A stretch of DNA of 64,000 bases, from the NCBI RefSeq assembly GCF_014200575.1, contig NZ_JACHBZ010000018.1:1-64000 (forward strand). The letters run 5' to 3'. This document shows positions 9,057 through 42,387 of the stretch, piece by piece. The position numbers and the translations under genes are program-made. Position 1 is the stretch's first letter. Every line of letters begins with the position of its first letter. The notes under the pieces are model-generated. The model worked only from the letters and a program-made list of their open reading frames with translations. It was not told the DNA's origin and did no database searches. This DNA is from Mucilaginibacter saanensis (GTDB lineage: Bacteria > Bacteroidota > Bacteroidia > Sphingobacteriales > Sphingobacteriaceae).

Positions 9057-10038
9057 GATTGGTATATAAGCTTAATGTGTTTATAATTTGTAATTCGTCC
9101 AGTTGTTCCATGCATTTGGGTACACCATACAATTTACAGGTATTGCGTACACAAGGCTCGCAGGTTAGTTTACCATAACGCAGTACGGTTAAGTTTTGTT
9201 TATTGTAGGGCGCGGTATTGTGCTCATTACCCGCACCAAACAAAGCTATAACCGGACTGCCTACACTGTTGGCTAAATGTGCAGGCCCCGAATCTGTGGT
9301 GAGTACAGCGGCACTTTGCGCCATCAGGCTGCATAAACCGGGCAGATCTGTTTGGCCGGCGTAATTCTGTAGCCGGTCGGCATTTTCAGAGCCGATGATA
9401 AGCTGGCTCACATACACGGCCTCCTTTGGCGCACCAATAAGGCAAAAGGTAGTATTGGTGAAAGTACTGGTAAGCTTATTGAGCAATGCGCGGCCCTTAT
9501 CCAACGGCATCCGTCGCGATGACGCTTCGGAATTGAAATTGATAATTACCTGGTTGGGGTGTTTTAGGCCTTGCACTGCCGCGTTTAGCCTAACCTGTTT
9601 GTGCGGAATAGTTTTACCGGTAAATTGTTCTACCAGGGATACGTATTCGTCAACACGGTGCAGGTTTGCGGACTTTTTATAGGAGTTGGTGAGCAAAAAA
9701 AAGCCGCCCTCTTTACCAAAGCCAACGCGCTTTTTTGCTGATGTAGCCCAACCCATAACCGCTGATGACAGTGATTGCGGCAGGTTAAAAAAGATGTCGT
9801 ATTTTTCGGCCTTTAGTTTTTTGCCGAAGCGGTAAACACCTGTCAGGCCGCCAAATTCCTGCTTTGAAAAGGAGTGGATTTGTGTTAAGCCGGGTATGAG
9901 CGGAGCAATATTGCTCAGTTCTTTCTTGATGATAACATCAATCCGGGCATCAGGATAAAGCTGCTTTACTGCCGCGACGAAAGCTGTACTCATTACTACA
10001 TCGCCGAGCCAGTTAGGCAGCCTTATCAGTATCTTCAT
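9049..10038 (-). CDS. Glycosyltransferase family 9 protein (heptosyltransferase-like)
   Basis: The 329-residue protein begins MKILIRLPNWLGDVVM, the GT9 N-terminal signature, and has the C-terminal donor-site segment TTDSGPAHLANSVG followed by VIALFGAGNEH. GT9 enzymes add ADP-heptose or related sugars to lipopolysaccharide core on the cytoplasmic side of the inner membrane. A Cys-rich tail (CEPCVRNTC) resembles WaaF proteins, which often have such cysteines. The exact acceptor is unknown, so no symbol is given. The gene overlaps tsaC by 8 bp and follows dapD in the same direction. Confidence 0.85.
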   Translation of the reverse strand: MKILIRLPNWLGDVVMSTAFVAAVKQLYPDARIDVIIKKELSNIAPLIPGLTQIHSFSKQEFGGLTGVYRFGKKLKAEKYDIFFNLPQSLSSAVMGWATSAKKRVGFGKEGGFFLLTNSYKKSANLHRVDEYVSLVEQFTGKTIPHKQVRLNAAVQGLKHPNQVIINFNSEASSRRMPLDKGRALLNKLTSTFTNTTFCLIGAPKEAVYVSQLIIGSENADRLQNYAGQTDLPGLCSLMAQSAAVLTTDSGPAHLANSVGSPVIALFGAGNEHNTAPYNKQNLTVLRYGKLTCEPCVRNTCKLYGVPKCMEQLDELQIINTLSLYTNHA

Positions 10039-10137
10039 GTTATGTTGATCAGGTGAGTGGTTGATTAAGTGAATGATTAATGAGGCGAACAGGTTAAAAT
10101 TTAACTACTCACCTAATCCAGCTTAATCAACCAATTA
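10039..10137. repeat. Word-repeat spacer between dapD and GT9 genes
   Basis: The 99-bp spacer contains GGTTGATTAAG at 10059-10069 and its exact complement at 10122-10132, plus AGGTGAGT at 10051-10058 and its complement at 10107-10114. The arm order is not nested, so only one pairing can form at a time. GTGGTTGATTA (10057-10067) recurs exactly at 63185-63195. Confidence 0.7.
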
Positions 10138-10953
10138 CTAAACCGCTACATTGTTTTCGCGCAGGGCGTCATTCAATGATGTTTTTTTATCTGTTGATTC
10201 TTTACGGGTACCAATGATCAGGGCACAAGGTACCTGGAAATCACCAGCAGGGAATTTTTTGGTGTATGAACCAGGAATAACTACCGAACGGGCAGGTACA
10301 CGGCCTTTGTATTCAACAGGAGTTGATCCTGTTACATCAATAATTTTGGTTGACGCGGTTAAAACCACATTTGCACCTAATACAGCTTCGTGCTCTACGT
10401 GTACACCTTCAACCACAATAGCGCGCGAACCAATAAAACAGTTGTCTTCAATAATAACAGGAGCAGCTTGTAATGGCTCCAATACACCGCCAATACCAAC
10501 ACCACCACTTAAATGCACATGCTTGCCTATTTGCGCGCATGAACCTACAGTAGCCCAGGTATCAACCATAGTGCCTTCATCAACATAAGCGCCAATGTTA
10601 ACATACGATGGCATCATGATAACACCTTTGGCCAAAAACGCGCCATAACGGGCTATACCGTGAGGTACCACACGTACACCTGCCGCTTTATAATTGGTTT
10701 TCAGTTTCATTTTATCATGAAACACAAAAGGGCCAACTTTAATTTCTTCCATGCTGCGGGTGGGGAAATATAGCACTACTGCTTTTTTAATCCACTCGTT
10801 TACATGCCAGCGTGAGCCAATTGGTTCGGCCACGCGGATCTCGCCTTTATCTAACCGTTCAATAACGGTTTCAATGGCGTTGGTATATTCGTTATAATTC
10901 AGCAGATTCCTGTCATCCCAGGCATCTTCAATCAGTTTTTTAAGATCTTGCAT
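10138..10953 (-). CDS. dapD: 2,3,4,5-tetrahydropyridine-2,6-dicarboxylate N-succinyltransferase
   Basis: The 271-residue protein has the DapD N-terminal helical domain followed by a left-handed beta-helix of hexapeptide repeats from about residue 105 to 215 (for example VNIGAYVDEGTMVDTWATVG), and ends with the ACALIIGTR-like strand. DapD succinylates tetrahydrodipicolinate in the lysine and meso-diaminopimelate pathway, so it supports both protein and peptidoglycan synthesis. Its length and motifs match the E. coli-type enzyme. It is the first gene of the minus-strand block 10953 to 7019, preceded by an AT-rich region holding unknown genes. Confidence 0.95.
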   Translation of the reverse strand: MQDLKKLIEDAWDDRNLLNYNEYTNAIETVIERLDKGEIRVAEPIGSRWHVNEWIKKAVVLYFPTRSMEEIKVGPFVFHDKMKLKTNYKAAGVRVVPHGIARYGAFLAKGVIMMPSYVNIGAYVDEGTMVDTWATVGSCAQIGKHVHLSGGVGIGGVLEPLQAAPVIIEDNCFIGSRAIVVEGVHVEHEAVLGANVVLTASTKIIDVTGSTPVEYKGRVPARSVVIPGSYTKKFPAGDFQVPCALIIGTRKESTDKKTSLNDALRENNVAV

Positions 10954-32223: not shown

Positions 32224-33546
32224 TTATGCCTGGTGATTAAATATCAGTTTAACCGATGTGCCTTTACCCTTAACAGAGTTTATTTTAACCTTAATATCAT
32301 GAAAAGCAGTAATACTTTTTACAATGGCAAGGCCTAAACCATAGCTTTCCTTTTCGTCGGTATCAAACTTTTCAAAGCGGTTAAAGGCACTTTCTATCTG
32401 TTTTTGATCCATACCAGCACCCGTATCGGTAATGTTGATGGTATAAGTGTCATCAGTAAAATCGTCGCTAATGGTAATGGAACCTTTGATGTTGTTGTAT
32501 TTAATGGAGTTGTTAATAATATTAAACAGCAGCGTGTGCATCAAGGGGCGGTTACCTTGTATAGAGTAAATGTATTTGAGGTGATTGGTGAATTTTAGTT
32601 GTTTTTCATCCATACGGTCTTCCAGTTCTTCATGTATCTCCTTCACAACGCCTGCAATCATTACTACATCAGCCTTATCAAACTGGTTGTTTTCAACTTT
32701 TGAAATCAGTAGCAAGCTATTGATGATTGATTTTAAGCGGTTAAGTGTTTTGAGCGATGCATGCATTTTGTTTTCGCTGCCTTCGCTAAGGTCTTCATGC
32801 AGCAATACATTCTCGAGCCTTGAACTGATGATGGATATGGGGGTTAGCAGCTCGTGCGATACATTGGCGATAAACTGTTTTTCAAGTATGAAAAGATTTG
32901 ATATCTTTTTCATCAGCGAACTTATGCTGTCGTCAAGCAGTTCAAAGTCCTGGGTAGTTGTTTTAATTTTTTCGTAATCGAAGTTCATTGGGTCGTTCAC
33001 CCTGATTAGTTTACGATCAATGATCTTGTAAAATGGAGCAAGCAAAAATTTGGTAAACACCAGATCGCTGATCAATGTAAGCACCAGAGCAATAAATAAT
33101 ACCAGTAAAGTAAACTTTTTGATGATCGACTTCAGCTCCTCCACAGATTCAATGGCCTCGCCAATCTCAAGCTTGTAGGTATGCCCGTTAAAGTTAAAAT
33201 GATGGGTAAGGATGCGGTAAGTTTGCATGTTTTTATCAACCTTACGTGTTTCAGTAGTAAATTTTACAGCATTGCTAACATCAGCATTATAGATAGCCGG
33301 GGTTATGGTAATGTACTCTTCCTTTAAAATGTTATAATCGGTGTAAACCTTTTGGCTGCTTAAAAAGCTGTTGATATCGCCCGATGAAAGGCTTTTCAGC
33401 GTTTCTTCCTTATCATCCTCCAAACGCACCTCAATGTGGTTATAGGATATTTTCTCTATGGATAGCAGAATGAGCAAGCCGGTAAATAAAATAATAGCCA
33501 CCTTGGTTAAGGTATTATATAAGGCCAGTTTTACCTGTAGTTTCAT
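32224..33546 (-). CDS. Two-component sensor histidine kinase
   Basis: The 440-residue protein has two membrane helices (about 12-32 and 143-163) enclosing a periplasmic sensor segment of some 110 residues. The cytoplasmic part has the H box FIANVSHELLTP with His231, N box NIINNSIKYNN (Asn346), G1 DTGAGMD (374-380) and G2 GLGLAIV (403-409). It should autophosphorylate and pass phosphate to the response regulator encoded just upstream on the same strand. The sensed signal is unknown. The gene is separated from the regulator by a word-repeat spacer. Confidence 0.93.
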   Translation of the reverse strand: MKLQVKLALYNTLTKVAIILFTGLLILLSIEKISYNHIEVRLEDDKEETLKSLSSGDINSFLSSQKVYTDYNILKEEYITITPAIYNADVSNAVKFTTETRKVDKNMQTYRILTHHFNFNGHTYKLEIGEAIESVEELKSIIKKFTLLVLFIALVLTLISDLVFTKFLLAPFYKIIDRKLIRVNDPMNFDYEKIKTTTQDFELLDDSISSLMKKISNLFILEKQFIANVSHELLTPISIISSRLENVLLHEDLSEGSENKMHASLKTLNRLKSIINSLLLISKVENNQFDKADVVMIAGVVKEIHEELEDRMDEKQLKFTNHLKYIYSIQGNRPLMHTLLFNIINNSIKYNNIKGSITISDDFTDDTYTINITDTGAGMDQKQIESAFNRFEKFDTDEKESYGLGLAIVKSITAFHDIKVKINSVKGKGTSVKLIFNHQA

Positions 33547-33667: not shown

Positions 33668-34345
33668 TTAAATATTAATGCGGTAACCGATGCTCCTTAC
33701 GGTTTCAAACCAGTCAATAGGAATGTATTGCGATAATTTTTTGCGCAGGTTTTTAACATGCACATCCACAAAGTTCGAGTCGGAGTTTATTTCCAGTACA
33801 TCGCCCCAAACATGCTCGGTTAAGTTGGTGCGTGATATTACCCTGTTTTTATTTAATACCAGGTAGTTGAATATCTCGAACTCCTTTTTGGTAAGGTTAA
33901 TACGTTCATCATTATACATTACCGTTCTGTTTTGAATATTAACGCGCAGGCCTTTAATATTAATATCGTTACTCTCCAGTCGGTGTTTGCGGCGTGTTAT
34001 AGCGTGCATACGTGCCAAAAGCTCGCTTAATGAAAATGGCTTGGCCAGGTAATCATCGGCACCTTGTTCAAGGCCCATTACGCGGTCATCAACGGCCCCC
34101 CGTGCGGTTAATATGATAACGGCATCCTCACGTTTGTCAAGGCCTTTCAGCATTTTTAAAAGGTCAAAGCCGTCACCGTCAGGCAGGCCAAGGTCAAGCA
34201 ATATAAAATCGTAGTTGTTTACGAAAATTTTTTCTTCAGCCGATTTTTTGGTGCGTGCATGTTCAACCGTAAAACCCTCATGGCTTAAAAATTCATCAAC
34301 TTCAAGGGCTAAGCCTTTTTCGTCTTCAACAATTAATACATTCAT
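33668..34345 (-). CDS. Response regulator, OmpR/PhoB type
   Basis: From the ATG at 34345 (MNVLIVEDEK) the 225-residue protein has a receiver domain with the acidic pair Glu7/Asp8, phosphoacceptor Asp51 in LLDLGLPDGDG and Lys in AKPFSL, followed by a winged-helix output domain (NLTKKEFEIFNYLV, VDVHVKNLRKKL). The longer reading from 34357 adds four residues. It pairs with the kinase downstream. The gene is divergent from the GH130 gene, 201 bp apart, so it may also control that locus; this is inference. Confidence 0.93.
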   Translation of the reverse strand: MNVLIVEDEKGLALEVDEFLSHEGFTVEHARTKKSAEEKIFVNNYDFILLDLGLPDGDGFDLLKMLKGLDKREDAVIILTARGAVDDRVMGLEQGADDYLAKPFSLSELLARMHAITRRKHRLESNDINIKGLRVNIQNRTVMYNDERINLTKKEFEIFNYLVLNKNRVISRTNLTEHVWGDVLEINSDSNFVDVHVKNLRKKLSQYIPIDWFETVRSIGYRINI

Positions 34346-34546: not shown

Positions 34547-36016
34547 ATGAGACTATCTATCGAACGCAAGCCCATAAGAGTTAATCCCGATCCGAAGCGT
34601 GTTATTGCAAGATTCTTTTTTAATGGGAATGATCGTGCCAAAGAAGTAATTGAACGGGTAATGGATATCACCGAAGAGGTAGCCTTCGGCATTGTATCCC
34701 CGCTGTTGCAGGAGTACTCCAAAAGACACCGTAATATCACCCGGGTTTTAAACCGGCATTGCAGTAAGCTAAAGCCACTTTTTCAGGAACTGCATATTGA
34801 TTATGATACACTTACAGTTTATCGTAAACTGTTAATAGGATCGTATTTTACCCATGAATATTCTATTGAGTCGGCGGCATTCTTTAATCCATCTATAGTA
34901 GAAGATCCCGACCAAACGGAACTGGAAGACGGGCAAAAGCGGGTAATTATCAGTTTCAGGGCGGTAGGTGAGGGGCATATCTCGTCTATCACTTTCAGAA
35001 GAGCTTTAATTGATAAGTTTAATAATATTACTATACAGCCATCCGGCAGTTATATTGACGAGGCCGAAATTGTGCGCAATGCCGTTTATAATAAAAAACT
35101 GTTTTTTGAAAAGGCCGCCATCACCCAGATCAATATTGATGTAATAAGTGAACTGGAATCAAAACTTGACCATCACTTTGAATATGCCAATCTGCGCCGT
35201 ATCATCCTTGATTCGCAAAAGCTGCAGGAAAGTGACATGAAGCGCCTGGAATACGATAAGGTGCTTTGGCTGGCAGATTCATACTACGAAATTGTTTTTT
35301 CGTTGGATACCGATATATCTGACCGCGTAATATTCCCGATATCTGAATATGAGCGCAAGGGTATTGAAGATGCCCGCTTTGTAAGGTTTATTAATGACGA
35401 TGGTAGCTACGTATATTATGCCACCTATACCGCTTATGATGGCTCGCTTATTATGCCTAAGCTATTGCAAACTACCGATTTTTATAACTTTAAAATAATG
35501 CCGCTATACGGTGCCGGTGCCCAGAATAAAAATCTGGCCCTGTTTCCGCGTAAGGTAAACGGTAAGTTCGTCATGATATCACGTATTGATGGTTGCAACA
35601 ACTACATCATGTACTCTGATAAAATAAACATATGGGAAAAGCCTATACCCTTGCAGCGACCAAAATTTTCATGGGAGTTTATACAGATAGGTAATTGCGG
35701 CTCGCCGATAGAAACCAAAGACGGATGGATCATGATAACCCATGGCGTAGGGCCCATGAGGCGCTACGTGCTGGGAGCAAGCTTACTGAAACTGGATGAC
35801 CCCGCCGTTGAGATTGGCAGATTGCGTGAACCTCTATTGATCCCCAACAGCGATGAACGTGAAGGGTATGTACCTAATGTGCTTTACTCTTGCGGGGCCA
35901 TTGTTCATAACGAAAAACTGATTATACCTTATGGCGTATCAGACTCCTCAACCGCCTTTGCCGAAGTTTGCCTGGACGAACTCCTGGCAAAGTTGAAAGA
36001 AGATGTAAGCGAATGA
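34547..36016 (+). CDS. Glycoside hydrolase family 130-like protein
   Basis: This 489-residue protein resembles the long form of GH130, with about 120 N-terminal helical residues before a five-bladed beta-propeller: IISFRAVGEGHISSITFR near residue 143, GIEDARFVRF, and IQIGNCGSPIETKDGWIMITHG. GH130 enzymes are beta-mannoside phosphorylases or, in some subfamilies, hydrolases. There is no signal peptide, so it should act in the cytosol. Its catalytic residue could not be assigned by eye. It faces two convergent GT4 genes, suggesting that synthesis and turnover of one glycoside are encoded together. Confidence 0.8.
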   Translation: MRLSIERKPIRVNPDPKRVIARFFFNGNDRAKEVIERVMDITEEVAFGIVSPLLQEYSKRHRNITRVLNRHCSKLKPLFQELHIDYDTLTVYRKLLIGSYFTHEYSIESAAFFNPSIVEDPDQTELEDGQKRVIISFRAVGEGHISSITFRRALIDKFNNITIQPSGSYIDEAEIVRNAVYNKKLFFEKAAITQINIDVISELESKLDHHFEYANLRRIILDSQKLQESDMKRLEYDKVLWLADSYYEIVFSLDTDISDRVIFPISEYERKGIEDARFVRFINDDGSYVYYATYTAYDGSLIMPKLLQTTDFYNFKIMPLYGAGAQNKNLALFPRKVNGKFVMISRIDGCNNYIMYSDKINIWEKPIPLQRPKFSWEFIQIGNCGSPIETKDGWIMITHGVGPMRRYVLGASLLKLDDPAVEIGRLREPLLIPNSDEREGYVPNVLYSCGAIVHNEKLIIPYGVSDSSTAFAEVCLDELLAKLKEDVSE

Positions 36017-36087
36017 AGCTGAATGCCTAAAGCCAAAGGCTAAAAGCTTTTTTCTTTGAGCTTTAAGTATAAACCTTGCATTAAGCT

Positions 36088-37092
36088 TTAACTCAATATT
36101 CGCTTATATAATTCAAAATAATCTCCCGTCATTTTATCGCAAGAGAATTGTGAGGATGCCCAATGGTAACAATCCACACGTTTAATGCTACCGATGCTAT
36201 TAACTGCATAAACCGCTTCATCAACGGTGTTAACTAAAAAGCCTGTTTCACCATCCTTGATCAGTTCCGGCATCGATCCGCGGTTAAAGGCAATAACTGG
36301 TGTGCCGCAAAGCATGGCTTCAGCTACGCTCATGCCAAATGGCTCATCAAAACTGATAGGATGCAGCAGGGCAAATGCCTTACCCAAAAGCTGCTTTCTG
36401 TCGTTTGGTCCGGCGTTGCCAAGGTATTGTATATCGTGAGATAGTAAGGGTTCAACCTTTTCGCGGTAATAGTTTTCATCCTGTATAAGGCCGGCTATCA
36501 GTAGTTTTCGTTTACTTTTTCTTGCTATAGCAATGGCTTCGGCAGTGCCTTTATGAGGATGGATGCGGCCAAAATAAAGCAGGTACTCATCCGGATTGGG
36601 ATAAAACTCAAAATCATTAGTATCCAGTCCGTTGTATACCGTTGCTATATAGTCCAGCTCAGGGCTGCGGTCGGCGTTGCTGATAGATACATAATAACCA
36701 GTGTGATTATACTTTTTATAAACCGGGATAATCCTGGGCGACGAAAAACCATGTATTGTGGTCAGCATCGGCGTTTTTATCAATCCGGAATAAGTGAGCG
36801 GTAAAAAGTCAAAATTATTATGAATGATGTCAAATTCATTTGCCTTTTCCATCAGGTTACTGATATGCAGGCATTCCAGCACTTTGGCGTCCTGGCTACG
36901 GTTTTCTTCATAGCCAGAGGCGCAAACGGCATCAAGTTTACCGGAGGTTATTGAGTCACCTGTAGCAAAAAGAGTTACGTCGGCACCAAGCTTTATCAGG
37001 CCCTCTGCAATATTTGATGCAATTTGCTCCCATGGTCCGTAGTGCCTGGGCGGTGTGCGCCAGGCAACAGGGGCTAATACGGCTATCTTCAT
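36088..37092 (-). CDS. Glycosyltransferase family 4 protein
   Basis: The 334-residue GT-B protein begins MKIAVLAPVAWRTPP, has GPWEQIASNIAEGL near residue 19-32, and the donor-site segment LHPISFDEPFGMSVAEAMLCGTPVIAF with the EX7E pattern. It is likely a retaining transferase using a nucleotide sugar, with unknown acceptor. No signal or membrane segment is present. Its ATG begins directly before the stop codon of the upstream GT4 fusion gene (adjacent bases 37092/37093), so the two are co-translated. It converges on the GH130 gene with 71 bp between stops. Confidence 0.88.
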   Translation of the reverse strand: MKIAVLAPVAWRTPPRHYGPWEQIASNIAEGLIKLGADVTLFATGDSITSGKLDAVCASGYEENRSQDAKVLECLHISNLMEKANEFDIIHNNFDFLPLTYSGLIKTPMLTTIHGFSSPRIIPVYKKYNHTGYYVSISNADRSPELDYIATVYNGLDTNDFEFYPNPDEYLLYFGRIHPHKGTAEAIAIARKSKRKLLIAGLIQDENYYREKVEPLLSHDIQYLGNAGPNDRKQLLGKAFALLHPISFDEPFGMSVAEAMLCGTPVIAFNRGSMPELIKDGETGFLVNTVDEAVYAVNSIGSIKRVDCYHWASSQFSCDKMTGDYFELYKRILS

Positions 37093-39372
37093 TTAACAGG
37101 TTTCCAGTTTCTGGTCGCCGTATTTATTGTATTCGTACTCCAGCTCAAATGCCTTTAATACCGTTAAGTGCGATATTAAATAGGCTAAAGTACTTTCGGC
37201 GCCCTGGTTGCGGTTAATACCGCCGGGGAGCAAGCCATCGCAGCAGCCCTTGGTTTCATGGTCATAAAGTGGTGCCCGCAGGGTGTTTTCGCCCAGGAAC
37301 CATTTATAGCTCAGGAACATTTTTTCAATATACTGTGGTATTCTGAATATTTGATAAGCCTGAAAATGCATCAGCACCATAGCCATAGTTTCAATAGCCT
37401 GCTGATCAAAGGTTGGGAAGGTACCACCACGATAATACCAGCCATCGTTACCAACCGGACTTAAATAACCGTTTGACAGGGTTAGTTTATCTAAAAATGC
37501 CATGGTGTTCAGCGCTATCCGTTTGGCATTTTCGTTACCTGTAATTTCGCAGGAGTGTAGTAATGCTAACGGGAGTATGGCATTGTCATAGGTCATTTTT
37601 TCTTCAAACCACTGCCAATCTACGGATTGTGTTTTTTCATAGGCATCAATAAGCGGCTGGGTAAGGTCTGCCAATATTTTTACCATACCCTCATCACTCG
37701 GAAATACCTGTAGGTATAAACTGATACCAATAATGGTATTAGCCTGGCCTCTTAAATGTTCTAATTTATCAAAGTGCGGTACCGATTTATGGAATATTTC
37801 CAGGGCAAATTCCCGGTAGGAATTACTGGCTGCACAGCCAATTAAATGACCCAATGCCCAAATGGTGCGCCCAAACGAATCTTCAGAACCTACTTCGTCA
37901 AGATAACGGCGGTCAAAACTTAAAAAGTTACGGAAGTTACCATCATCAGTTTGCATGTAGTGAATGTAGCTCAGATATACCGGCAGCAGTTCAAATGCTT
38001 CCCTGCTTTTGCTGCGCTGGTAGGCCATCAGTGCCATAATAAGCGCCCTGGCATTATCATCTAAACAATAACCCTCCTTTAAATTAGGTATACCGTATTT
38101 AGCATGCTGTACAATGCCAGTATCATCTGTTAAACGCAATACATGAGTTAGGCTGAACTTAGGCAGTATCTCCGGATCAACGATGCTGTTTTTCAGTATT
38201 TTATCGCTAAAGTCAAATTGAGCGCTCGATTCCTGCGCCACTTTTATAAACTCGGCACCAATAACCGGCCAGCGTAGGTGTAAGCCGTATTGATAGGCAT
38301 TTTCCTTAAGTTCTTTTAATACACGATCCTGGTCAAGTAGCTCAATTACGGTGTCGGCAAGTGCTTCGGAGTTCTTAAAATCAAACAGGCGCCCGCGTTT
38401 GTCGGCCAATAATTCGGTAGCATGCCAGTAAGGGGTTGATACCACTGCGGCACCGGCACCCACAGCATAAGAAAGCGTACCGCTGGTAATTTGAGCCTCA
38501 TTAAGATATGGCGTAACATAAATTTCAGTAGCAGTGAGGTAATTTACCAGCTCCTCTTCCGAAACAAATTTATTGATGAACGACAGGTTGCGGGATACAC
38601 CAAGCTGGGTTGCGAGGGTTTTTAAATGATCGCGATATTCTTCACCCGAATTTTTGATAACGCCCGGGTGCGTATTGCCCAAAATCACATACATTACGTC
38701 TGGGTGTTTTTCAACTATCCGGGGTAAAGCCTTTACTACGGTTTCCAAACCTTTATTGCGGCTAAGTAAGCCAAAGGTGAGTAAAACACGGTGGTTTTTA
38801 AATGACGATAGATTTTTAACAGGGTTATCTACAGGCGCTTCCACATCCGGTACCCCATGCTCTATGATCTGGATCTTTTCGGTAGGGATATCATAAATGG
38901 TAGTTAAAAACTCTACCGCACGCTGGCTCATTACAATTATTTTGGATGACTGCTCTGCAATTTCGCGGATGATGATGCGCTGTACATAGCTGGGATCTTT
39001 GAGTATGGTATGCAGTATAGAAATTAATGGTTTTTCGAGCCGGTTTATCAGCGGCAATATATATATACCGCTTTCGCCCCCGTATATGCCAAACTCATGC
39101 TCCATGATACAAACATCGGCACTGCTGGTATTGATGTAATTGGCAGCCTTGATGTAATCTTTCTGATGATCCTGACGGATAATGTATTTCACCTCTTCGG
39201 GATATTCATACTGCTGCAGATCTTCGGAATCATTCAGCGCGACCACAAAACCACCATGTGCAAGCGAAGTTCTTTCTGGAAAATTTGCATTAATGGCACG
39301 CATTAAATTTTGGTTGAAGGTGGCTAAGCCACATTCGCGGGGAGGGTAGGTGGATATATATGCTATTTTCAT
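37093..39372 (-). CDS. GT4 glycosyltransferase fused to a large alpha-helical C-terminal domain
   Basis: From the ATG at 39372 the protein has 759 residues. The N-terminal 375 or so form a GT4 transferase (IAYISTYPPRECGLATF at the start, LLTFGLLSRNKGLETV, and YVTPYLNEAQITSGTLSYAVGAG). Residues of about 385-759 form a helical domain with regularly spaced segments (LDDNARALIMALMAYQRS, SFGRTIWALGHLI, TFDQQAIETMAMVL), resembling an (alpha/alpha)-barrel seen in glycosidases and epimerases. I cannot name that domain. The fusion with the GT4 partner and the adjacent GH130 gene suggests one pathway. The ORF from 39411 adds 13 residues without support. Confidence 0.82.
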   Translation of the reverse strand: MKIAYISTYPPRECGLATFNQNLMRAINANFPERTSLAHGGFVVALNDSEDLQQYEYPEEVKYIIRQDHQKDYIKAANYINTSSADVCIMEHEFGIYGGESGIYILPLINRLEKPLISILHTILKDPSYVQRIIIREIAEQSSKIIVMSQRAVEFLTTIYDIPTEKIQIIEHGVPDVEAPVDNPVKNLSSFKNHRVLLTFGLLSRNKGLETVVKALPRIVEKHPDVMYVILGNTHPGVIKNSGEEYRDHLKTLATQLGVSRNLSFINKFVSEEELVNYLTATEIYVTPYLNEAQITSGTLSYAVGAGAAVVSTPYWHATELLADKRGRLFDFKNSEALADTVIELLDQDRVLKELKENAYQYGLHLRWPVIGAEFIKVAQESSAQFDFSDKILKNSIVDPEILPKFSLTHVLRLTDDTGIVQHAKYGIPNLKEGYCLDDNARALIMALMAYQRSKSREAFELLPVYLSYIHYMQTDDGNFRNFLSFDRRYLDEVGSEDSFGRTIWALGHLIGCAASNSYREFALEIFHKSVPHFDKLEHLRGQANTIIGISLYLQVFPSDEGMVKILADLTQPLIDAYEKTQSVDWQWFEEKMTYDNAILPLALLHSCEITGNENAKRIALNTMAFLDKLTLSNGYLSPVGNDGWYYRGGTFPTFDQQAIETMAMVLMHFQAYQIFRIPQYIEKMFLSYKWFLGENTLRAPLYDHETKGCCDGLLPGGINRNQGAESTLAYLISHLTVLKAFELEYEYNKYGDQKLETC

Positions 39373-39633
39373 ATTTGGGTAGAAATATTTGAAATTGATG
39401 ATTGCAGGCATAAGCAGGAACTCTTACATAACCGTTTAAACCAGTGACTATAAAAAAGTGCAGAAAGTGATCTGTTTTAAAAGGAAATACAGCTTAGCAG
39501 CCCATTTTTTATGGTACACATCATAAATGCATAAATCATACCAATTTAACTCAAACTAAATATTATAAGATATTATTTAAGTACCGTAGCCTGAAAGTTA
39601 CATTTTGTAAAAGGTGCGTTTTTTTATTCAGTG

Positions 39634-41448: not shown

Positions 41449-42387
41449 TTAATTAGTATCCAAATAATCGGACAGATCTTCATCCAAACTTTCGCCGTTA
41501 ATTTGCTGTCCGCCATCCATCAGGGTACGGGTATCACCTGCATCCATGTGTAATTGCAGGTAGCTTTTAATTTCATCAACAGGTACGGTTGAAAGCTGTT
41601 CATGTAAAAAAGACTGATCATGCCTTACCACTGGGGTATCCGCATTTTTAATAACTACGCCAATGCCCAATATAAGGGCAAAGCAAGCGGCTGTAGCATA
41701 CCTTAAGGTGGGTGTTGCAAAAAGCCTGCGTACAATACCTTTCTTTTTAACGGCGCCGGGCATCGTAACAACCCGGGCAGGCTCCTGATTAACAGTCTTA
41801 TTTAAAATGTTTTGATTTAACTGCTCAAAATAATTTTCAGGAACAGTAAAATCTTCGGCCTCAGCATTTATGTGCTGCTCCACGGTTATCCTGCTCTGGA
41901 TATTGTTACTGAGCTCTTCAAAATAATTTTCAGGAACAGTAAAGCTTTCAGTTTCATTATTTACGTGCTGTTCAATAGCTATCCTGCTCAGGATATTATT
42001 GCCAAGCTCTTCAAAATAATTTTCAGGCACATCAAATGGCGGTTGCTCCGGGTTTAATGCCTGTTCAATTGCTATTCTGCTCCGAATGTTGCTGCCAAGC
42101 CCATCAAAATAATTTTCGGGTACGGTAAAACCTGCGTTTTCCGTAGGCACAGCCTCCTCAATACGTATACGGCTCTGTATGTTGCTGCTTAATTGTTCAA
42201 AGTAGTTTTCAGGCAAAGTAAGCCCAGTGGATGAGCTTTTTAGCTCTTCCAGCCTTATGCGTGATGTTATGTGCTGCGCTAATTCGTTGAAATAGCCAGA
42301 CGGCACTGTAAACGGATTATTGGCATTGATCCGTTTAAGTGATTCATAATCATCCAGCCACTCCCTATTGTCCATATCGCTTTTCAT
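41449..42387 (-). CDS. Putative anti-sigma factor with six 31-residue repeats
   Basis: The 312-residue protein is encoded immediately after an ECF sigma factor. It has no ZAS-type Cys motif. A single membrane helix at about 228-248 separates a cytoplasmic N-terminus from a short C-terminal region. The N-terminus has six copies of a unit beginning F-T-V-P-E-N-Y-F-E-x-L-x-x-N-I-x-S-R-I, starting at residues 26, 56, 87, 118, 149 and 180, so the spacing is 30 then 31 four times. A single such motif is common in Bacteroidota anti-sigma-like proteins; six copies are unusual. An ATG at 42375 is an alternative start. Confidence 0.8.
   Translation of the reverse strand: MKSDMDNREWLDDYESLKRINANNPFTVPSGYFNELAQHITSRIRLEELKSSSTGLTLPENYFEQLSSNIQSRIRIEEAVPTENAGFTVPENYFDGLGSNIRSRIAIEQALNPEQPPFDVPENYFEELGNNILSRIAIEQHVNNETESFTVPENYFEELSNNIQSRITVEQHINAEAEDFTVPENYFEQLNQNILNKTVNQEPARVVTMPGAVKKKGIVRRLFATPTLRYATAACFALILGIGVVIKNADTPVVRHDQSFLHEQLSTVPVDEIKSYLQLHMDAGDTRTLMDGGQQINGESLDEDLSDYLDTN
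41788..42312 (-). repeat. Six-copy 93-bp coding repeat in the anti-sigma gene
   Basis: Direct repeats with a 93-bp period encode the VPENYFE unit six times (the first spacing is 90 bp). The nucleotide copies keep CAAAATAATTTTC on the plus strand in five of the six units, so the expansion is probably fairly recent, though spacer residues have diverged. Confidence 0.85.

Follow-up and report, generated by a model that had tools for sequence, protein, structure and literature searches.

A widely shared gene set of GH130, GT4 and GT4-toroid fusion proteins in Mucilaginibacter saanensis, a candidate module of mannose-glycan synthesis and recycling

A stretch of 64,000 nucleotides from Mucilaginibacter saanensis (contig NZ_JACHBZ010000018.1, positions 1 to 64,000; hereafter the window; source assembly of 6.24 Mb in 46 contigs) carries three adjoining genes, which encode a long-form GH130 protein (GHL), a stand-alone glycosyltransferase (GT) of family 4 (GTB), and a fusion of a GT4-like domain with an (alpha/alpha)6 toroid (FUS). 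The fusion and GH130 genes recur together in other Bacteroidota and on plasmids from further phyla. We propose, with a probability of about 0.5, that the three genes represent, in this genome, a conserved and transferable module by which a mannose-containing glycan is made and recycled in the cytoplasm. The data show the genes themselves, their recurrence in several phyla, the protein folds and the conserved residues, and from these we infer the glycan, its linkages and its physiology.

Gene set and recurrence

The module in the window comprises the following features (aa, amino acids).

34547-36016, plus strand: GHL, long-form GH130, 489 aa; PF04041 match at residues 259-484
36088-37092, minus strand: GTB, stand-alone GT4, 334 aa; PF00534; relative of the glucosylsucrose synthase TeGSS (7FG9)
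37093-39372, minus strand: FUS, GT4-like domain plus (alpha/alpha)6 toroid, 759 aa
38215-39372, minus strand: GT-B fold domain of FUS, residues 13-398
37117-38193, minus strand: toroid domain of FUS, residues 406-764; related to 7TEM/YPO2471

The start of FUS was chosen to fit the 758-760 aa of most listed relatives (the longest open reading frame (ORF) begins at 39411); FUS residues are counted from base 39408, and subtracting 12 gives the numbering in the 759-aa protein. GHL and GTB are convergent with 71 bp between them, and there is no gap between GTB and FUS (TAA stop of FUS at 37093-37095, ATG of GTB starting at 37092). Coordinates and Pfam matches thus confirm the layout described in an earlier sequence-only reading of this DNA, a GH130 gene converging on two gapless GT4 genes, one of them fused to a helical domain. 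The absence of export signals from the three proteins, also claimed there, was borne out by a hydropathy scan, which found no export or membrane segment in GHL, GTB or FUS. A promoter and terminator scan was uninformative: promoter-like sites numbered 19 where 19.3 were expected, and a single terminator-like site was seen where 7.9 were expected.

We surveyed 247 Bacteroidota genomes of at least 90% completeness, counting GH130 proximity by tblastn; the co-occurrence counts are uncorrected for relatedness. FUS, full-length or in two pieces, was found in 46 genomes at 47 loci, and a GH130 gene lies within 5 kb at 36 of these (one more at 7.5 kb), for which the binomial tail is 1.6e-48 if 0.025 per locus, a generous assumption, is taken as the chance rate, again with relatedness uncorrected. 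Among the 36 loci, 24 include a short GH130 and 12 a long GH130 only. All 46 genomes with FUS have a GH130 relative, as against 35 of the 201 genomes without FUS. In Mucilaginibacter, 49 of the 70 loci with enough downstream sequence have FUS downstream of the GH130 gene at a distance of up to 5.5 kb. Across 59 loci, only FUS/toroid (57) and GH130 (47) are families present in more than half, the next family reaching 18. Two genomes encode the halves of FUS as separate adjacent genes (L147 8246-10588 and L164 9076-11230), which represents either a gene split or the ancestral state; in L147 a stop codon separates the halves, which are two ORFs of the same frame, where the genome search had shown one open frame of 802 aa.

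Phyla outside Bacteroidota were sampled through plasmid records only, and many of the sphingomonad records are near copies. Among 25 plasmid records that cover 80% or more of FUS (Fusobacteriota, Alphaproteobacteria, Deinococcus), 24 have a GH130 gene within about 1.1 kb; in the remaining record, where the fusion was recovered as fragments, the distance is 4.5 kb. On the Ilyobacter polytropus plasmid pILYOP02, GTB, short GH130, long GH130 and FUS follow one another at intervals of -4, 1 and 12 bp, and Deinococcus sp. KNUC1210 carries FUS, GTB and a GH130 annotated as hypothetical. The surroundings of FUS were read in 13 plasmid stretches (flanks of 4 to 12 kb; ten partial-fusion records were left out), and at least one mannose-phosphate or GDP-mannose gene was present at 7 of them, e.g., in Sphingobium amiense, where mannose-1-phosphate guanylyltransferase/mannose-6-phosphate isomerase, mannose-6-phosphate isomerase, FUS, GH130 and phosphomannomutase form a run. 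Two further loci of the 13 have an AGE-family epimerase. In two Croceicoccus plasmid records the GT and toroid matches are about 15 kb apart, and one Nostoc record matched the GT part only. A conjugative plasmid of Sphingomonas koreensis (L190) carries, at 9061-10284, a long-type GH130 without adjoining FUS among copper-binding and copper-resistance genes, and has the FUS module elsewhere on the same plasmid.

The sequence-only reading had named two outcomes that would speak against a shared system, a disordered or ordinary regulatory C-terminal domain of the fusion and a lack of co-occurrence elsewhere, and neither was found. Because the gene types co-occur widely (in the loci and genomes counted above and in several phyla), a shared system, as that reading had suggested, is likely.

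The three proteins and related toroid operons

GHL matches PF04041 with 101.3 bits (cut-off 26). Its best solved relative in the Protein Data Bank (PDB) is a 1,2-beta-oligomannan phosphorylase (9FJ8, E 1.6e-32), followed by a beta-1,2-mannobiose phosphorylase (7FIP). E274-D275 aligns with the ED of 9FJ8, 7FIP, 5B0P and 9ERH, i.e., a Glu before the invariant acidic Asp as in GH130_NC, and the roles of this pair are taken from PMC4599007 (here and below, cited papers are represented by excerpts). The same source gives Lys199 of BT3780 as the mark of beta-1,2 specificity in GH130 and describes a loss of the basic phosphate-binding residues in hydrolytic members (PMC4599007). In GHL, K328 aligns with the lysine of the NKD motif (NKN in GHL) in four PDB relatives and would be the equivalent of Lys199, an equivalence drawn through these four, BT3780 being outside the alignment. 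R346 and H399 correspond, in a sequence alignment, to the Arg and His of solved beta-1,2-mannoside phosphorylases. GHL scores far under the NCBIfam equivalog cut-offs (NF052550, 128.1 against 450 bits; NF050092, 147.8 against 550), and its exact substrate is therefore not fixed. The N-terminal approximately 250 residues are divergent, with helices predicted at low to moderate confidence, and the AlphaFold model (pLDDT 57) was too poor for use.

GTB matches PF00534 with 84.2 bits, above the cut-off, and its EX7E motif, the hallmark of GT4, is intact (EPFGMSVAE at residue 250). It aligns over its full length with TeGSS (tll1591 of Thermosynechococcus; 243 bits) and keeps equivalents of TeGSS Y18, R179 (the Arg of FGRIHPHKG), K184 and E256; donor-site residues are conserved. 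In TeGSS, Tyr18 and Arg179 are catalytic and Trp10 stacks on sucrose (PMC9909042). W10 aligns with Ala in GTB, with a Trp one position later (residue 11).

The GT part of FUS matches PF00534 with 72.7 bits (cut-off 26.4) and resembles PimA and MshA. A canonical EX7E motif was found in none of 28 diverse FUS sequences (including those of the Fusobacteriota, Alphaproteobacteria and Deinococcus plasmids), which have a conserved QxxSGT[L/F] instead (Q306, S309, G310, T311). The C-terminal approximately 360 residues had no Pfam match at E 0.01; they form an (alpha/alpha)6 toroid related to PDB 7TEM (YPO2471), by sequence and fold similarity over the domain. The helical domain of roughly 375 residues that the sequence-only reading had left without a name is thereby placed as an ordered toroid, a fold common to sugar enzymes, with invariant acidic residues. 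YPO2471 itself differs in being named a putative exported protein and in lacking a GT fusion, and neither its name nor a described activity of a 7TEM-type toroid was found in the open-licence PMC literature. Among the 28 sequences, invariant residues make up 23 of the 359 positions of the toroid and 31 of the 388 of the GT domain, and because these shares are similar, both halves are under similar constraint.

Comparison of the 28 fusions with 13 stand-alone toroids showed D451, R454, N494, R514, W600, N609, W703, N708, D724, N734, G736, E738 and S739 to be common to all 41, and D450 to be present in 40; R553, E602 and Q670 are invariant in FUS and replaced in the stand-alone toroids. The two groups are likely to have one catalytic core with different substrate contacts, and D450/D451 together with E738 are the best candidates for the acid and base, as judged by conservation.

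D450-D451 at 38056-38061, D724, and E738 at 37195-37197, minus strand: candidate catalytic acids of the toroid (conservation)

Endo-alpha-mannanases of GH76 use a catalytic Asp-Asp pair, and cellobiose 2-epimerases and AGE proteins use catalytic histidines; profile alignments of the toroid with GH76 or AGE were weak and did not include the catalytic residues, and both stay candidate placements. GH88 (PF07470) gave no match for the window FUS at E 0.01, with a precomputed match in 5 of the 120 relatives listed. Among the fold-search matches listed there was no GH125, GH15, GH63 or MmpH (7QSJ), which says nothing against these families.

The stand-alone toroids belong to a second type of operon, which also encodes a solute-binding protein with two ABC permeases and both the short and the long GH130; some of these operons have a GH2-type or GH94/MGH1-like protein as well. 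The 13 loci were chosen via GH130 or toroid hits, and linkage counts there are biased upward. Export-type N-termini are present in 12 of the 13 stand-alone toroids, several of them lipoprotein-like; they are absent from the GH130s checked in the import operons (12 short, 10 long) and from all 28 FUS. All 36 Bacteroidota genomes with a long-type GH130 (at least 260 bits) have the toroid, 29 as FUS and 7 as the stand-alone form only; long GH130 and toroid therefore probably act on the same material, an imported glycan in one case and a cell-made one in the other. Since an exported toroid cannot rely on nucleotide sugars, the toroid is most likely a hydrolase.

Genes next to the module

Upstream of GHL lies a two-component system.

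33668-34345, minus strand: response regulator, adjoins the module; judged outside the system
32224-33546, minus strand: histidine kinase, partner of the response regulator; judged outside the system

The response regulator is divergent from the GHL gene, as had been noted from the sequence, at a distance of about 200 bp, with the histidine kinase downstream of it. The two-component system adjoins the GH130 gene at 28 of the 73 Mucilaginibacter loci with enough upstream sequence, and in 39 non-window loci no relative of either protein scored above 51 bits. We therefore rejected the two-component system as a general regulator of the module and judge it to be a genus-local neighbour. Of the intracellular synthesis and recycling system proposed in the sequence-only reading, the intracellular location and the recycling by GH130 fit our results, whereas stress control by the neighbouring two-component system was not borne out. 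Limited and separate support for a stress association comes from heat-shock genes (groESL or dnaK/grpE) near FUS in 5 of the 13 plasmid stretches, all from sphingomonads and partly copies of one element.

Several other neighbours were observed. Mla-type lipid-transport genes occur at ten loci (L167-L169, L180, L203, L204, L206-L209), nine of them in one family; a P-type-ATPase-like family occurs at six loci, and a KdpD/universal-stress protein at L162 (L148 is also in the neighbour list). In the window, the contig edge (1-231) weakly matches (E 1.7e-6) the C-terminal part of mannose-1-phosphate guanylyltransferase/mannose-6-phosphate isomerase. At 41449-42387, a 312-aa protein adjoining a sigma-factor-like gene has about six copies of a VPENYFEELxxNIxSRI-like motif followed by a putative membrane segment (by eye), and may be a tandem-repeat anti-sigma protein. 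At another place in this genome (G000:C1:462189-464366; L004, L255) a GH130 gene stands beside an AGE/cellobiose-epimerase-type gene, which is the arrangement expected for the known route of mannobiose epimerase and mannosylglucose phosphorylase.

Proposed cycle, alternatives and known systems

In the cycle that we propose, the GT4-like half of FUS and GTB would assemble the core or chain of an alpha-linked oligosaccharide and would draw, in part or wholly, on the GDP-mannose/mannose-1-phosphate pool. The toroid half would act on this chain as a glycoside hydrolase, and its cutting or trimming would set the length anew or free primers. GH130 (long and short in many relatives) would attach or release beta-mannosyl units (most likely beta-1,2) in a reversible reaction with mannose-1-phosphate. 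Taken together, synthesis, trimming and phosphorolysis would amount to a closed reserve or compatible-solute cycle, in which the fusion would keep synthesis and trimming in one protein.

A number of observations weigh against this proposal. GT4 enzymes make alpha bonds and GH130 acts on beta-mannosides, and the two are therefore not simple reversals of each other; the picture of an alpha core with beta-mannose is a bridge, not a result. As EX7E is missing from the GT domain of all 28 FUS sequences, the donor of FUS is uncertain, and a search of the ORFs of the 59 Bacteroidota loci with three Sphingobium mannose-phosphate proteins gave no relatives at E 1e-4. We regard these as the main weaknesses. 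Furthermore, GH130 is missing from the 5-kb surroundings of 11 of the 47 FUS loci (the 7.5-kb case and ten others, of which five belong to a single genus and five are single loci), GTB is part of the locus at only 12 of 47, and no short GH130 stands beside the window module. Among 40 listed plasmid GH130 records, 14 (H80, H82-H87, H96-H102) lack a FUS match, the search having covered the plasmid record itself and not the remainder of the genome. The FUS loci L158 and L159 lie inside an importer operon; synthesis and import are not cleanly separate. Finally, the closest solved relative of GTB uses UDP-glucose and sucrose (PMC9909042).

The last point would fit a glucosylsucrose-type pathway, in which FUS and GTB build an alpha-linked, glucose-containing stress oligosaccharide, with GH130 either taking off a mannosyl cap or now acting on a different sugar. 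We consider this rather unlikely, because the sucrose-stacking W10 of TeGSS aligns with Ala in GTB (albeit with Trp at 11), GTB is absent at 35 of the 47 FUS loci while GH130 is mostly present, and mannose-phosphate or GDP-mannose genes were found at 7 of the 13 plasmid loci read. A salvage-only reading, in which GH130 turns imported or internal beta-mannosides into mannose-1-phosphate for GDP-mannose, and FUS and GTB then spend this GDP-mannose on an unrelated product, resembles the interpretation published for the Thermoanaerobacter cluster Teth514_1786-1789, whose authors propose GDP-mannose salvage (PMC4264767). This is the nearest published cluster, with a GT4, a mannose-1-phosphate guanylyltransferase and two characterised GH130 beta-1,2-mannoside phosphorylases; it resembles the module in having GT4 and GH130 in one cluster, and the PDB relatives of GHL are likewise beta-1,2-mannoside phosphorylases. 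It differs, by description rather than by comparison of GT4 sequences, in that importer genes and a GH5 are named and a GT4-toroid fusion is unmentioned in the excerpts (PMC4264767). The ABC importer genes of the stand-alone toroid operons and the position of L158 and L159 also speak for salvage alone. Nevertheless, importer permease families occur at only these 2 of the 46 non-window FUS loci, the annotated Ilyobacter stretch has no importer gene, and the toroid that FUS carries next to its GT is related to the one that accompanies imported glycan, so that we hold salvage alone to be unlikely.

GT4 enzymes often act in envelope synthesis, and the resemblance of the FUS GT domain to PimA and MshA would suit an assembly of cell-envelope glycans, with the GT4s working on a lipid-linked or lipopolysaccharide precursor and GH130 and the toroid editing the product. 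This seems improbable given that no family other than FUS/toroid and GH130 exceeds half of the 59 loci and that hydropathy indicated no membrane segment in GHL, GTB or FUS. Gene order and spacing do vary, and not all of the Mucilaginibacter loci have FUS near GH130 (the 49 of 70 given above), as might be expected of unrelated genes that are neighbours by chance; with adjacency across phyla and co-occurrence in 46 of 46 genomes, we find it very hard to believe that chance is the explanation.

Two other systems offer partial parallels to the proposed synthesis and recycling of a mannose-containing glycan. In the mycobacterial methylmannose polysaccharide (MMP) system, the (alpha/alpha)6 endomannosidase MmpH yields primers for the GT-B mannosyltransferase ManT, and changes at Asp47, Asp50 or Glu262 inactivate or impair MmpH (PMC9883506). 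The pairing of GT-B and (alpha/alpha)6 folds is shared, and an early Asp pair and a later Glu recall D450/D451 and E738 of FUS; by analogy, FUS would place a ManT/MmpH-like pair in one chain. It is not a member of the MMP system, which has separate proteins, methyltransferases and an alpha-1,4 chain, with GH130 unmentioned in the excerpts (PMC9883506). Moreover, Glu313 and Glu321, as given by the ManT variants, have by our reading the EX7E spacing, whereas FUS lacks that motif. In Leishmania, mannogen is a beta-1,2-mannan energy store recycled by GT108, which has a five-bladed propeller fold as in GH130 (PMC8950772). Here the likeness is in the beta-1,2-mannan store and in proteins with the GH130 propeller fold; the differences are that the system is eukaryotic and uses GT108 rather than GH130, and GT4 and toroid partners are unmentioned in the excerpts (PMC8950772). 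A tentative and rather doubtful extension of our proposal is that the module is a bacterial counterpart of mannogen, widespread in Bacteroidota and also in Alphaproteobacteria, Fusobacteriota and Deinococcus. It would be a second, plasmid-mobile reserve or stress polysaccharide, in which one polypeptide extends and cuts the chain, GH130 phosphorolysis provides turnover, and the toroid founds a new glycoside hydrolase family.

No description of a GT4-toroid fusion or a GT4-toroid-GH130 module was found among the top-ranked matches in open-licence PMC papers, and the gene set is apparently an undescribed, widely shared arrangement of known enzyme classes with a fused enzyme and a toroid. If the proposed cycle is correct, many bacteria carry a mannose-based carbohydrate cycle that is hidden by the annotations 'glycosyltransferase family 4' and 'GH130'. 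The GH130 phosphorylases would then gain a biosynthetic setting beside the digestion of imported beta-mannans, a toroid family with a solved structure would gain a function, and glycan synthesis and cleavage would be physically coupled in a single protein. The four-gene run of Ilyobacter and the short operons of sphingomonads are compact enough for such a cycle to be rebuilt in the laboratory.

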